From the IMG/VR virus record IMGVR_UViG_3300042889_000925, positions 1 to 35,133 of that record: DNA of 35,133 nt, one strand, 5' to 3'. The notes beneath the pieces are model-generated. The model saw nothing but the letters and a program-made list of their open reading frames with translations, made no database searches and was not told the origin of the DNA. A program made the translations under genes and the position numbers. Positions 3,833 through 33,556 of the stretch are shown here, piece by piece (position 1 is the stretch's first letter; the number at the start of each line of letters is the position of its first letter). This DNA is from a virus.

Positions 3833-3924
3833 CTGAACTATTTGAGTATATTGAAATAATAGTATACTATGATATAAGATGCAAAAAATATGACTATATT
3901 TATCAATTAATATGTTACAATTAG
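3829..3924 (+). CDS. Possible 31-residue micro-protein
   Basis: A 31-codon frame begins with an exact ATGA overlap of the upstream stop and ends 13 nt inside the next gene. The product is rich in tyrosine, isoleucine and glutamate (EYIEIIVYYDIRCKKYDYIY). The double overlap copies the coupling used by neighbouring genes and fills what would be the only gap in this operon segment. It is too short for composition to be decisive. Confidence 0.35.
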   Translation: MTELFEYIEIIVYYDIRCKKYDYIYQLICYN

Positions 3925-4124
3925 AGAAGTTAGAGAAGTACTGTAAAGACAGAAACATAGAAGCCACTTTTATAAATGGTGTTCTTATCGAGCCTTTGCC
4001 AATAGTGAAATATAACTATAGAGTTAAAAAAGATGCTTGGTTTTTAGAGATAGCAGTAAATAAATACGGTTGCAAAACAGTTGTAGAAGCAATGTTTAAT
4101 AAAAAAATGACACTAATATTATGA
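3912..4124 (+). CDS. Hypothetical protein
   Basis: This is a 70-residue protein of unknown function. An N-terminal helix (LQLEKLEKYCKDRNIE) is followed by beta-like stretches. Its stop overlaps the start of the ParB-like gene by ATGA (4121-4124), placing it directly upstream of the base-modification block and in the same transcript. I see no family signature and therefore assign no role in modification. Confidence 0.6.
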   Translation: MLQLEKLEKYCKDRNIEATFINGVLIEPLPIVKYNYRVKKDAWFLEIAVNKYGCKTVVEAMFNKKMTLIL

Positions 4125-4687
4125 AATATTTGAAAATAAATGAGATAAAACTCAACCCAAATAACCCTAGAATAATTAAGGATGATAAGTTTACAAAACT
4201 AGTTCAGTCTATTAAAGACTTTCCTGAAATGTTAGATATTAGACCTATTGTAGTTAATCAGGATATGATTATTCTAGGTGGAAATATGAGATACAAGGCT
4301 TGTAAAGAAGCAGGTTTAAAAGAAATACCTGTTATTGTAACCGATTTAACAGAAGAACAACAAAAGGAGTTCTTAATAAAAGATAATGTTTCAGGCGGGG
4401 AATGGGATTGGGATTTATTAAATGAATGGGACACTGAACAATTAGAAGATTGGGGGTTAGATGTTTGGGAACAACCTGCTGAAGTAGATTATTCTATTCT
4501 TGACGACGATGATATATCTGAACAATTAGAGGATATGACTAACGGAGTTAAAAAAGCTATACAAATTGAATTCGAAGCTGAACATTATAATGAAGCGTTT
4601 GAACTTGTAAAGTTTTGGAGAGATAATAAAGCCTATGTTGGTGGTATGATAATGGAATATTTAAAAGCTGAAAAAGAAAAAATATGA
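4121..4687 (+). CDS. ParB/Srx-like domain protein of the DNA modification block
   Basis: The 188-residue product begins with a ParB-type N-terminal domain: a conserved opening INEIKLNPNNPR at 7-17 and the core GGNMRYKAC at 53-61, followed by KEIPVIV. The segment GEWDWDLL at 93-100 is typical of phage ParB-like domains, which are often fused to or encoded beside DNA methyltransferases and other base-modifying enzymes. The C-terminal 70 residues are acidic and unassigned. There is no partner ParA, so plasmid-type segregation is unlikely. It overlaps the glycosyltransferase gene by ATGA. As ParB-fold proteins can bind DNA or CTP and act as nucleases, the plausible role is a DNA-binding or regulatory partner of the modification enzymes. 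That is inference from context. Confidence 0.8.
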   Translation: MKYLKINEIKLNPNNPRIIKDDKFTKLVQSIKDFPEMLDIRPIVVNQDMIILGGNMRYKACKEAGLKEIPVIVTDLTEEQQKEFLIKDNVSGGEWDWDLLNEWDTEQLEDWGLDVWEQPAEVDYSILDDDDISEQLEDMTNGVKKAIQIEFEAEHYNEAFELVKFWRDNKAYVGGMIMEYLKAEKEKI

Positions 4688-5415
4688 TTTGTTTTATACC
4701 AACAAAAGGTAGGTTAAATACAAAAACTTATAAACTTTTTGAAGATGTAGGTATTGATGTGAAACACTTTATAGAACCACAAGAAATAGAAAAATATCAA
4801 GTACCTAACAAAATATCTATTTTAGAAAATAACAAAGGTATTGGTTATGTTCGTAATTTTATGTTGAATTATGCAAGGCAAAATGATTATGAATGGGTTT
4901 TAATTTGTGATGATGATGTTACTTCTTTTGGTATTTATAATGGAAAAACAATAAAACAAGATGCGTCAATTTGGATTAATATATTAGAAAAAGCAAAGAA
5001 ATTACCTTTTGAATTGATAGGGATAAACTACACTCAACACGCCTGGCACGAAAAAACAAGTTATTCAATTAATAAAAAATTTGCAGAAGTTTGTGTATTA
5101 ATGAATGTATCTAAAATTAAATGGAATTATAGACCAGAATTTAATTTAAAAGAGGATAGAGATTTTGCACTTCAAACAATACAAAAAGGAAACGGAATTT
5201 TAAGATTTAATCATTTTTGGTTTTCTTGTCCTGATGTTGGTTCAAATACTGGTGGGTTACAAGATGAATACAAAGCGAAAAAAGACGAGGAAAGTGCTAA
5301 AAAAATGTGTAGAGAATGGCATCCATTTGTTACTTTAAAAAAGAAAGGTGATAGAATAGATATGAAAACAGATTTAAAATCATTATCTATGCACTATAAA
5401 AAACAAATAAGATGA
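4684..5415 (+). CDS. TET-associated glycosyltransferase (TAGT-like), DNA base glucosylation candidate
   Basis: The 243-residue product looks like a GT-A fold glycosyltransferase. It opens with FIPTKGR at 4-10, then GIGYVRNFML at 52-61, a DDD metal-binding motif at 76-78 in LICDDDVTSFG, and an acidic pair E157-D158 in LKEDRDF. The match to the TAGT family is by motif pattern and by the gene immediately downstream, a TET/JBP dioxygenase with ATGA overlap (5412-5415). The predicted reaction is transfer of a sugar from a nucleotide sugar to the hydroxyl of 5-hydroxymethylpyrimidine in DNA. The sugar and the base cannot be read from sequence. No signal peptide or membrane segment is seen, so it should act on cytoplasmic phage DNA. 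A generic family 2 glycosyltransferase is the main alternative. Confidence 0.8.
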   Translation: MICFIPTKGRLNTKTYKLFEDVGIDVKHFIEPQEIEKYQVPNKISILENNKGIGYVRNFMLNYARQNDYEWVLICDDDVTSFGIYNGKTIKQDASIWINILEKAKKLPFELIGINYTQHAWHEKTSYSINKKFAEVCVLMNVSKIKWNYRPEFNLKEDRDFALQTIQKGNGILRFNHFWFSCPDVGSNTGGLQDEYKAKKDEESAKKMCREWHPFVTLKKKGDRIDMKTDLKSLSMHYKKQIR

Positions 5416-6218
5416 AACGTATAGATTTAATTGAAGTAAAGCACAACCGTAAAATTGGTGAACCTTGTGAATATATTGAGCCTAATGTTACTGAAGATTG
5501 TATTTTTTATGTAAATAATGAGCCTATAGGTTTTTACTTAAATAAAATGCCTGAAAAAATGTGTAAATTAGCAGACTTGGCAAATTCAGAATTTAATAGT
5601 AAAAATGTTCCAAAAACAAAACTAGATAGGTCAGACGTTTTAAAGGCTCAAATTGATAATCCTGGTATGTCAAGGTCAGATGCGAGAAAGGTTGGAACAA
5701 GTCAAATGTCAGTAATACTTGGTAGCGTCCCACCAAAGCCACAGTTTATGAGATATTACGGAACAACGTCAAGTGTTCATTCAGTTAAAACAGCGCAAAC
5801 ATTTATTAAAGCAATGTTATTATTAGCTAAAGAAAGTGAGTTGTTAATAAAAGAATTATTGCCAAAACAATATGAACAACAAATTGAATTATTTAAAGAT
5901 GTTAATGAAAAATGGAGGTTTGGAAACTTATTTACAAGTTCAATTTCTAACTATAATATTTCAGCACCTTTTCATAGAGATACAGGTAATATAGTCGGGG
6001 CGGTTAATGTAATAATTTGTAAACAAAAGAACTCAAAAGGTGGAGATTTACACGTTCCCGATTATAATGCCACAATTGGTCAAGTTGACAATTCTATTTT
6101 AGTTTATCCTGCTTGGAAAAATATACATGGAGTTACTCCGATAATACCAATTCACAAAGATGGATATAGAAATTCACTTGTTTTTTATCCTTTAAAAGCT
6201 TTCAAAAATTTAGATTAA
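5412..6218 (+). CDS. TET/JBP-family 2-oxoglutarate/Fe(II) dioxygenase acting on DNA
   Basis: The C-terminal half of this 268-residue protein is a double-stranded beta-helix dioxygenase. Iron ligands are H188 and D190 in APFHRDTGN and H239 in NIHGVTP; R253 in YRNSLVFYP is placed to hold 2-oxoglutarate. GGDLHVPDY at 210-218 is typical of the TET/JBP branch. The N-terminal half (KLADLANSEFNSK, SDARKVGTSQM) is less conserved. TET/JBP enzymes oxidise the methyl group of 5-methylpyrimidines in DNA to hydroxymethyl. The upstream glycosyltransferase and the phage cytosine-C5 methyltransferase at 32912 give a full methylate-oxidise-glycosylate route. A thymine-directed JBP-like activity is the alternative. 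It is the last gene of its unit: its stop lies within the terminator hairpin. Confidence 0.87.
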   Translation: MKRIDLIEVKHNRKIGEPCEYIEPNVTEDCIFYVNNEPIGFYLNKMPEKMCKLADLANSEFNSKNVPKTKLDRSDVLKAQIDNPGMSRSDARKVGTSQMSVILGSVPPKPQFMRYYGTTSSVHSVKTAQTFIKAMLLLAKESELLIKELLPKQYEQQIELFKDVNEKWRFGNLFTSSISNYNISAPFHRDTGNIVGAVNVIICKQKNSKGGDLHVPDYNATIGQVDNSILVYPAWKNIHGVTPIIPIHKDGYRNSLVFYPLKAFKNLD

Positions 6219-6271: not shown

Positions 6272-6706
6272 ATGAAAACAGCAACACTTTACGAATTAAG
6301 AAAAAATCAAACTGATTTCCCTAAAAAGAAAATAATTAGTTCATCTACTTCAACTGAATTTATAAGACAATTTTATTCAGATGACATTGAAATTTATGAA
6401 AGTTTTTTTTTATTACTTTTAAATAATCAAAATCAAACATTAGGATATGCTAAAATAAGTCAAGGAGGAATAACAGGAACGGTTGTAGATGTTAGAATAG
6501 TTGCTAAATATGTAGTCGATAGTTTAGCAACTGGTATTATTTTAGCTCACAATCATCCTAGCGGAAACTTAAAACCAAGTCAACAAGATATTGATATAAC
6601 AAAAAAAATAAAAGAAGCTATGAAATTATTTGATGTAACTGTATTAGACCATATTATTCTAACAGTTGACAATTTTTATTCATTTGCTGATAACGGAACG
6701 ATATAA
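6272..6706 (+). CDS. radC: RadC-like JAB/MPN domain protein
   Basis: This 144-residue protein is one RadC/JAMM domain without the N-terminal helix-hairpin-helix of cellular RadC. The metal site is clear: E43 early in the domain, then H93 and H95 in AHNHPSG at 92-98, S103, and D106 in PSQQDID. The tail VLDHIILT...YSFAD is characteristic. Phage and mobile-element RadC proteins are widespread. Their biochemical role is unsettled, and a direct repair function has been questioned. It is the first gene of the late unit, 14 nt after the expected transcript start, and shares one base with the next gene (TAATG). Confidence 0.88.
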   Translation: MKTATLYELRKNQTDFPKKKIISSSTSTEFIRQFYSDDIEIYESFFLLLLNNQNQTLGYAKISQGGITGTVVDVRIVAKYVVDSLATGIILAHNHPSGNLKPSQQDIDITKKIKEAMKLFDVTVLDHIILTVDNFYSFADNGTI

Positions 6707-7110
6707 TGGCATACGACAAACAAAAGATATTTGAACAGGCGAAGGAAGTTATAGTTAAACATAAACTATTTTTCATTGAAGATATAGTTGCTTTTATTCC
6801 AATTTCAAAACCTACTTTTTACGAGTATTTTCCTATTCAATCTAACGAAGTTAACGAGCTAAAAGGATTGCTAGAAACAAATCGTATTGAATTAAAAGTT
6901 TCTATGCGGTCTAAATGGTATAAATCAAATGCACCAGCTTTGCAAATGGCTTTAATGAAATTGATTGCAAGTCCTGAAGAACTAAGAAAACTATCAATGA
7001 ACCACCAAGTAACAGAGGAGGTTGAAAAACCTATTTTTAACGGAATAAATATCAATGTTACAAGAAACGACAGCACAGCAGAAGATAGCGAACCTACTAA
7101 AGAGGATTAG
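6706..7110 (+). CDS. Putative terminase small subunit
   Basis: This 134-residue protein lies directly upstream of the terminase large subunit and overlaps it by 56 nt. Its N-terminal part forms a helix-turn-helix-like segment (FIEDIVAFIPISKPTFYEYF, about 22-41), then a helical region with NRIELKVSMRSKW. The last 25 residues are acidic and low in complexity. Position, size and DNA-binding pattern fit a small terminase that recognises packaging sites, but I see no diagnostic motif, so the call rests mainly on context. Confidence 0.62.
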   Translation: MAYDKQKIFEQAKEVIVKHKLFFIEDIVAFIPISKPTFYEYFPIQSNEVNELKGLLETNRIELKVSMRSKWYKSNAPALQMALMKLIASPEELRKLSMNHQVTEEVEKPIFNGININVTRNDSTAEDSEPTKED

Positions 7111-8224
7111 AGTTGTAAGGGGTGGAACTTCAGCAAGTAAAACCTTTACAATTATACCTTTTTTAATAGATTATGCCGTTAAGAACCCAAAGAAGGAAAT
7201 ATCAGTTGTTTCAGAAACTATACCACATTTAAGAAGGGGTGCTATTCGTGACTTTCTTAAGATAATGGATATGATAGGAATGTACAACGATAATAATTGG
7301 AATAAATCGTCGTTAACTTATAAATTTTCAAACGGTTCTTATATTGAATTTTTTAGTGCAGACCAACCTAACAAGTTGAGAGGTGCAAGACGTGATGTTT
7401 TATTTATAAACGAGTGCAACAATGTAGATTGGGAAAGTTACTATCAATTAGCCATCCGTACACGTGATTTCATTTATTTAGATTATAACCCAGTCGCAGA
7501 ATTTTGGGTAGACAAGGAGTTAATAGGTCATGAAGATACAGACTTTATTGTATTAACTTATAAGGATAACGAAGCATTAGAACAATCAATTATTAAAGAG
7601 ATAGAAAGTGCAAGGGAGAAAGCTAAAACGTCTTCATATTGGGAGAACTGGTGGAAAGTTTATGGATTAGGGCAAATTGGTAATTTAGAAGGTGTAATTT
7701 TTAAAGAGTGGAAGCAACTTGACAAAATACCTTTAGATGCTAAACTTGTAGGAAGAGGAATGGATTTCGGTTATACAAACGACCCTACCACAATAACTGA
7801 TATTTATCAATGGAATAACGAATATATTTTTGATGAACGAATATATCGTACTGGTTTAACCAACCCCGAAATATGGAGAGAATTTAAGTCTTTAAATATT
7901 GATAATTCAATTTACACTATTGCGGATAGTGCCGAGCCAAAATCAATACAAGAATTATCTAGTTTAGGTATGAAAATAATCGGTGCAACTAAGGGAGCTG
8001 ATAGTATTATGTATGGTATTCAAAGAATGCAAGAGAATAACTTTTACGTTACCTCAAATAGTTTGAATATAATAAAAGAATTAAGAGCTTATACGTGGGC
8101 GGTTGATCGTGAAGGGAATAAGTTAAATAAACCGATTGATAATTTTAACCACGCAATCGACGGAATTAGGTATTTCTTTACCTCAAAACCAAAAGCAAAA
8201 GCACCTCGAAGCCGTTTATTATGA
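7055..8224 (+). CDS. terL: Terminase large subunit (PBSX-like)
   Basis: The 389-residue product is a DNA-packaging motor. The ATPase domain has Walker A GGTSASKT at 23-30 and Walker B VLFINE at 115-120, with E120 as catalytic candidate. The RNase H-like nuclease domain has D237 in MDFGYTNDP, D291 in IADSAEP and D369 in NHAIDGIRY, the usual acidic triad. It pumps DNA into the prohead through the portal and cuts it. The portal gene is about 13 kb away rather than adjacent. The ATG at 7055 lies inside the small terminase gene; the stop overlaps the next gene by ATGA. Confidence 0.95.
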   Translation: MLQETTAQQKIANLLKRIRVVRGGTSASKTFTIIPFLIDYAVKNPKKEISVVSETIPHLRRGAIRDFLKIMDMIGMYNDNNWNKSSLTYKFSNGSYIEFFSADQPNKLRGARRDVLFINECNNVDWESYYQLAIRTRDFIYLDYNPVAEFWVDKELIGHEDTDFIVLTYKDNEALEQSIIKEIESAREKAKTSSYWENWWKVYGLGQIGNLEGVIFKEWKQLDKIPLDAKLVGRGMDFGYTNDPTTITDIYQWNNEYIFDERIYRTGLTNPEIWREFKSLNIDNSIYTIADSAEPKSIQELSSLGMKIIGATKGADSIMYGIQRMQENNFYVTSNSLNIIKELRAYTWAVDREGNKLNKPIDNFNHAIDGIRYFFTSKPKAKAPRSRLL

Positions 8225-32704: not shown

Positions 32705-32925
32705 CACTATACCAAGAAATTAAATACGAAAATTACGTCAAACGTAAATCATTAATTACAAATAAACATAGACTAGCTTATATGCGAAATAAAGACTTTA
32801 AAACTTTATTCTGTAAGTCAAGTATGATAAGAGCTAGAATAGTCTTAAAACATTGTAAAAAGGAATACTTTGGCTATTCAATAAGTAATTACAGAAAAAA
32901 ATATGTGAATAATGAAGAAAATTAA
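32701..32925 (+). CDS. Hypothetical basic protein
   Basis: This 74-residue protein is strongly basic (FKTLFCKSSMIRARIVLKHC, YRKKYVNN), suggestive of nucleic-acid binding, with no named motif. It starts by ATGA overlap with the frameshifted gene and overlaps the methyltransferase start by 14 nt, so its translation may be coupled to that of the enzyme. Confidence 0.6.
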   Translation: MTLYQEIKYENYVKRKSLITNKHRLAYMRNKDFKTLFCKSSMIRARIVLKHCKKEYFGYSISNYRKKYVNNEEN

Positions 32926-33556
32926 AGTATTAAATTTATACGCTTGTTTAGGTGGTAATAGATTGCTTTGGAAGGATTGCGATGTTACAGCGGTTGAATT
33001 AGATCCAGAACTAGCAAGAATGTATCAAGAACGTTTTCCAAATGATAAAGTAATTGTAAAAGATGCTCATCAATATTTGTTAGATCATTACAAAGAATTT
33101 GACTTTATATGGAGTTCGCCACCCTGCCCTACTCATAGTAAGATCAATATTAGCCAATATACACGTGAAAGTTGGAAGCCTCATTTTCCTGACATGAAAT
33201 TATATGAAGAAATACTTTTTTTAAAACATTATTTTAAAGGTAAATTTGTTGTTGAAAACGTTATACCGTACTATGAACCTTTAATACCTGCTACTAAAAG
33301 AGGTAGACATTTATATTGGTCTAATTTTAACATACCAAATTTCAAAGAAAGAGATGCTAAAATAAGAGAATGGCAATTGCCACAATTAGAAGCTCATCAT
33401 AAAATTGATTTAAGTAGTTATAATGGTAAACAAAATAAACGTAAAATAGGAAGGAATTTAGTAGACTATGAAGCTGGAAATACTATTTATAATTCTATGA
33501 GAGGAATTGAAGAAAGTAATAAAAATAACCAAGTTTCAATTTTTGATCAATTATAA
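32912..33556 (+). CDS. Cytosine-C5 DNA methyltransferase
   Basis: This 214-residue protein has the C5-methyltransferase motifs in order: a SAM-binding LNLYACLGGNR at 7-17 (motif I, replacing the usual DxFxGxG), AVELDPELA at 27-35 (motif II), the catalytic SSPPCPTHS with nucleophile C72, VVENV at 113-117 (ENV motif VI), and RGRHLYW at 130-136, the place of motif VIII. A closing EAGN/SMRGI segment (188-199) fits motif X. It is shorter than restriction-type enzymes, leaving a small target-recognition region, so sequence specificity is unclear. It would supply the 5-methylcytosine used by the TET/JBP enzyme. No restriction partner is adjacent. Confidence 0.84.
   Translation: MKKIKVLNLYACLGGNRLLWKDCDVTAVELDPELARMYQERFPNDKVIVKDAHQYLLDHYKEFDFIWSSPPCPTHSKINISQYTRESWKPHFPDMKLYEEILFLKHYFKGKFVVENVIPYYEPLIPATKRGRHLYWSNFNIPNFKERDAKIREWQLPQLEAHHKIDLSSYNGKQNKRKIGRNLVDYEAGNTIYNSMRGIEESNKNNQVSIFDQL

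Follow-up and report, generated by a model that had tools for sequence, protein, structure and literature searches.

A constant ParB-TET gene pair and an exchangeable enzyme slot in a probable phage system of DNA hypermodification

The DNA analysed here (the window) is the whole of the 35,133-nucleotide virus record IMGVR_UViG_3300042889_000925 from IMG/VR. The first approximately 198 bases of this 35.1 kb record are repeated at its end, so the window probably represents the complete genome of a phage. Three genes that follow one another through ATGA overlaps (at 4684-4687 and 5412-5415) lie upstream of the terminase genes, and a gene for a C5-cytosine methyltransferase is found elsewhere in the window. 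The features are:

3912..4124, + strand: 70-aa ORF of uncertain membership in the cluster; ATGA overlap with the ParB start; 69% in the related locus L003; no family match in Pfam or PHROG
4121..4687, + strand: ParB_N (ParB/Srx-like) protein, 188 aa, constant partner of TET; PF02195, E 1.5e-11
4684..5415, + strand: TAGT GT-A glycosyltransferase, 243 aa, in an exchangeable slot; PF20691, E 1.2e-14
5412..6218, + strand: TET/JBP Fe(II)/2OG dioxygenase, 268 aa; PF12851, E 2.7e-9; pocket residues N193, Y259 and L261
6706..7110, + strand: probable small terminase, 134 aa, a downstream landmark named by position (5' of the large subunit gene and overlapping it); no family match in Pfam or PHROG
7055..8224, + strand: terminase large subunit (TerL), a downstream landmark; 58% identical to TerL of Flavobacterium phages
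32912..33556, + strand: compact C5-cytosine methyltransferase, 214 aa, probably outside the system; PF00145, E 1.5e-8

The ParB-like, TAGT and TET/JBP identities had been proposed from short motifs in the original prediction, and a profile search bears them out, all three proteins matching Pfam families above the curated cut-offs: 44.6 bits against 26.3 for ParB_N (PF02195), with the GG-x-x-R box present as LGGNMRYKAC, 55.1 against 27.5 for TAGT (PF20691), and 36.9 against 34.9 for Tet_JBP (PF12851). The TAGT protein also matches phrog_842 with an E-value of 1.2e-25. Searches of the single proteins against the PDB with phmmer returned nothing useful, and structures were predicted with AlphaFold from alignments of relatives. 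The TAGT model (pLDDT 83) has a GT-A fold, with Z-scores of 15.4 to GalNAc-T2 and 13.8 to SpsA, and D77 and D78 of the acidic metal motif are invariant across 23 TAGT proteins of the slot described below. The TET model (pLDDT 92) is a double-stranded β-helix that aligns best with TET2 (PDB 7ne3; Z 19.2, rmsd 3.4, 246 residues) and NgTet1 (5cg9; Z 19.0), with lower scores for FTO and AlkB. Both folds on which the original prediction had staked itself are therefore present in the predicted models, and the residues that it singled out in the dioxygenase, H188, D190 and H239 of the HxD...H iron triad and the 2OG-binding R253, are invariant wherever the sequence is present among 162 family members. 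Its general idea of DNA oxidation combined with glycosylation is likewise supported by the predicted identities of the proteins, and most likely the locus serves post-replicative DNA hypermodification of a known kind, phage TET/TAGT systems having already been described.

A Bacteroidota host, also proposed originally, is plausible, given the identity of TerL to its Flavobacterium phage counterparts and a related ParB-TAGT-TET cluster carried by a Flavobacteriaceae MAG. The terminase is located 3' of TET in most relatives of the locus, and relatives of the putative small terminase are present at many of these loci. In the window, a RadC-like JAB gene (6272-6706) separates TET from the putative small terminase; this gene is shared with the near copy L002 and is missing at that place from L003 and the remaining relatives.

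The cluster recurs far beyond chance. With the patterns used, IMG/VR yielded at least 217 TET relatives, of which the best 80 were taken for analysis of their loci; a further 80 loci near the TET of Prochlorococcus phage MED4-184 were added. A ParB gene stands just before the slot in each of the 82 loci whose upstream sequence spans 3 kb or more. ParB also adjoins TET in actinophages, where the pair lies beside genes for ADDT, a P-loop kinase and the terminase, and in Pelagibacter phage HTVC112P, where the gene order is ParB-TET-FkbM. Among named phages with recorded hosts, P-HS2/MED4-184, P12024L, HTVC112P, Matzah and LilMcDreamy have this core or a TET locus related to it; the gene order in P-HS2/MED4-184, a cultivated phage with a class I TET (see below), is ParB-FkbM-TET. 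No relatives of the Tonitrus TET were found in the IMG/VR scan.

The pairing of ParB with TET is constant, and the gene between them occupies an exchangeable slot. Across 162 loci, the slot holds an FkbM methyltransferase in 90, TAGT of type 1 in 27, one of four other TAGT-like types in 22 (6 of them with a sulfotransferase), an ADDT/P-loop module in 6 and a 301-aa protein without Pfam or PHROG match in 5; it is empty in 7 and cut off in 5. The slot TAGTs fall into at least four subtypes, subtype 4 being recognized by PHROG only and subtype 2 scoring below the Pfam cut-off. In the sulfotransferase version, a TAGT-like protein is followed by a Sulfotransfer_2 protein (E 3e-15), and the ADDT module comprises ADDT (E 2.6e-12), a weak P-loop match, a glutamine-amidotransferase-like protein and a weak GNAT match. 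The original prediction identified the TAGT correctly, and the exchangeable nature of its position lay beyond the reach of a single genome.

Pairs of loci with closely similar flanking proteins, among them neighbours whose DNA is more than 90% identical on either side, differ in the slot alone. FkbM in one member corresponds to TAGT3 in the other for L057 and L062 (TET 97%, ParB 93%), to TAGT1 for L234 and L265 (91% and 97%) and to an empty slot for L232 and L239 (94% and 95%), and TAGT1 corresponds to the ADDT module for L044 and L053 (95% and 89%). At the DNA level, L234 and L265 share 93.5% identity as far as the ParB end and 93.3% from the start of TET onwards, with no similarity in between, and the breakpoints of the exchange are the ParB stop and the TET start; the window and L026 show the same pattern with flanks at 78–80% DNA identity. 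On a tree of 81 TET proteins, the slot label requires at least 34 changes (minimum 9; mean 42.2 for shuffled labels), a count possibly inflated by recombination inside TET; the evidence from the near-identical pairs is independent of the tree. For most types, the distribution of slot labels on the tree is close to random.

Probably, the constant ParB-TET core and the exchangeable slot for a decorating enzyme together make up a DNA hypermodification system, an assessment that applies to the mechanism and not to the choice of substrate. We infer the following chemistry. The TET/JBP protein would act on a pyrimidine that is already part of the DNA and hydroxylate its 5-methyl group, yielding a 5-hydroxymethyl base, to which TAGT would attach a sugar through the new hydroxyl, hiding the DNA from host nucleases. 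The constant linkage suggests joint action of the ParB-like protein and TET on DNA, the former in targeting or loading. In the relatives, another finishing enzyme in the slot would follow an unchanged first step, and a different slot enzyme would thus give a different final base.

As to the pyrimidine that is oxidized, the enzymes acting on 5mC read the base through an Asp or Asn at N4 (N1387 in TET2) and a His at N3 (H1904 in TET2, H297 in NgTET1), with Y1902 stacking on it (PMC7854593). The counterparts of TET2 N1387, H1904 and Y1902 in the window are N193, L261 and Y259. The Leu is found in all 159 members with the residue present, so the N3-reading His is not kept. The pockets of phage TETs separate into two clean classes: Asn-Leu in class I, which comprises the family of the window and the actinophages, and Asp-Arg in class II, represented by P12024L, Cr30 and HTVC112P and resembling the 5mC enzyme CMD1; the Asn-Arg pocket of S-CBWM1 is between both. 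An Asn able to pair with O4 of thymine, together with a Leu that removes the N3 contact, would fit thymine as the class I substrate. Pocket residues were not accepted as proof of thymine, because the CMD1-like Asp-Arg class is also found without C5-methyltransferases; neither the pocket nor the absence of such a methyltransferase is by itself more than suggestive. The ADDT and P-loop kinase genes beside TET in actinophages count in favour of thymine, these being enzymes of the 5hmdU route (PMC6449724), as do the lack of PF00145 in named TET phages and complete relatives and the lack of PF00303, both detailed below. The C5-methyltransferase encoded in the window and in 4 of the 20 further class I IMG/VR records of 30 kb or longer counts against it. 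With Leu where TET2 has His1904, and with the ADDT/kinase partners of the relatives, 5mC is no likelier a substrate than thymine. We give about an even chance to thymine, which would be converted to 5hmU and then to a glycosyl-5hmU like base J; 5mC is a possible but more doubtful substrate, and some other base is unlikely. The fuller reading, held tentatively and at somewhat less than even, is that class I TET/JBP proteins are thymine hydroxylases working with ParB, and that the slot yields a family of new bases from a single 5hmU intermediate, namely a phage base J (glycosyl-5hmU), amino-acid conjugates, a form with a methyl group and one with a sulfated sugar.

According to the original prediction, the route runs through cytosine: the C5-methyltransferase would make 5mC, TET would convert it to 5hmC and TAGT would glycosylate the product. 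The window encodes all three enzyme types, the methyltransferase at 32912 being genuine, with SPPC, ENV and KRGR motifs in addition to its Pfam match. Phage systems of this type are known (Iyer et al. 2013; Burke et al. 2021, as represented in a citing paper), the phage TETs assayed elsewhere acting, in that account, on 5mC from co-occurring C5-methyltransferases (Burke et al. 2021, via PMC12730594). Cytosine derivatives are also substrates for TAGT enzymes of T6-like phages, the proposed reaction being the transfer of a second glucose onto glucosyl-hmC (PMC13390438), and in L005 and L075 a related C5-methyltransferase is present approximately 0.8–0.9 kb upstream of ParB. Yet a role of the window enzyme in the pathway is not upheld. 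Its gene is about 5.5 kb off the cluster and belongs to a free-standing family: no TET was found near its relatives in 80 loci (tblastn) or in 25 long records (Pfam), the latter search being weak by itself since no control genome gave a match either. PF00145 was found in none of 13 named TET phages, a search that could miss distant C5-methyltransferases, and in none of G006, G008 and G023, three relatives with overlapping ends like those of complete genomes. On these co-occurrence counts, a C5-methyltransferase was rejected as a fixed part of the system, and the enzyme of the window is probably not in it. With most TET relatives devoid of the enzyme and a Leu where 5mC TETs have His, the cytosine route is an alternative to be taken seriously, albeit one that we doubt. 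As a separate observation, a compact C5-methyltransferase (65% to that of L087) lies just 5' of a class II (Asp-Arg) TET in L298 (1883-2533, 2755-3618), the only such neighbour pair among 111 class II loci within the flanks covered.

A different methylated base as the TET substrate seems improbable, as do 5-methylpyrimidines incorporated into DNA from the nucleotide pool. A methyltransferase adjoins TET-TAGT in Nonlabens phage P12024L; considered as a C5 enzyme, it was rejected, being of N6/N4 type with a DPPY motif, and among the solved structures of the fungal relative CcTet is one with 6mA DNA. Against these points, no methyltransferase of whatever type constantly accompanies the ParB-TET core in the loci read, and supply from the pool finds no counterpart in PF00303, absent from all 17 records searched, the window included; Cr30 was the only one among the other TET phages tested with a match. 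Still less probable is that the slot genes are unrelated cargo beside a packaging gene, with no role in DNA modification. The locus adjoins the terminase genes, whose vicinity is a common site of accessory genes, and sugars or other metabolites are the usual substrates of the FkbM and sulfotransferase families. However, almost every slot enzyme that could be identified transfers a chemical group, DNA modification is the known role of the TAGT and ADDT families, and the associations recur at a distance: TET with FkbM in HTVC112P, with TAGT in P12024L and S-CBWM1, and with ADDT in actinophages.

TET, TAGT, their pairing and the replacement of glycosyltransferases in T-even phages are already known. 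The locus resembles the phage TET/C5-methyltransferase/glycosyltransferase clusters of Iyer et al. (2013) and Burke et al. (2021), in which, as represented in the citing paper, Tet_JBP likewise stands beside TAGT and DNA oxidation and glycosylation are predicted. It differs from those clusters, as they are represented there, in that the C5-methyltransferase is outside the cluster and missing from most relatives, a single slot exchanges its enzyme, and the TET of the window has Leu for the N3-reading His of TET2 and NgTET1. As in the kinetoplastid base J pathway (JBP1/2 and JGT), a TET/JBP hydroxylase is combined with a separate glucosyltransferase, and methylation beforehand would be unneeded if T were the substrate; unlike its kinetoplastid counterparts, the phage enzyme is a single-domain protein of 268 aa without a J-binding domain, and thymine hydroxylation is here a prediction. 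Glucosylated 5hmdU had not been reported from phages as of 2019 (PMC6449724). The thymidine hypermodification of phages M6, ViI and phi W-14 employs a 5hmdU kinase and an amino-acid:DNA transferase, and ADDT and a P-loop kinase are present in the slot or beside TET of relatives. In contrast to that type, PF00303 (dUMP hydroxymethylase-type) was not found in the records searched, TET would form the hydroxymethyl group in DNA, and the kinase/ADDT module is confined to the relatives, the slot of the window holding TAGT (slot and neighbouring genes checked). The T-even phages that glucosylate hmC share the TAGT family and the replacement of a DNA glycosyltransferase by a different one in a syntenic position, T6-like phages having TAGT where T4 has beta-GT (PMC13390438), but their hmC comes from the nucleotide pool, whereas here unrelated enzyme families alternate in the slot next to TET. 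The open-licence papers searched, which did not extend to Iyer et al. (2013) and Burke et al. (2021), contained no description of a fixed ParB-TET slot taking unrelated enzyme families. If the proposed mechanism is correct, phages would diversify their DNA chemistry by swapping a single cassette beside a fixed oxidation core, a simple change of immunity to host nucleases in which the DNA disguise is exchanged one cassette at a time. The old question of phage counterparts of the thymine-oxidizing JBP-type enzymes and of base J would also become testable.

Public labels mask the TET/JBP family: it appears as 'queuine tRNA-ribosyltransferase' and its ParB partner as 'DNA methylase' (phrog_6059; CPAG_00035 and CPAG_00033 of NC_020847.1), and class II TETs are annotated as 'SNF2 DNA repair protein'. 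Several named phages carry further genes in a row with TET. Synechococcus phage S-CBWM1 (L305:3302-7494) encodes TET, then TAGT, phosphoheptose isomerase and glucose-1-phosphate thymidylyltransferase, as would a phage that produces its own sugar donor. The row of TET, a TAGT-like protein and a PIG-L de-N-acetylase in Arthrobacter phage Prairie (L275:5728-7999) suggests an amino sugar on DNA. In Mycobacterium phage LilMcDreamy (L276:1784-4333), TET is followed by ADDT, an Asp/Asn beta-hydroxylase-like protein and a P-loop kinase, and it is possible that the added group is oxidized further.
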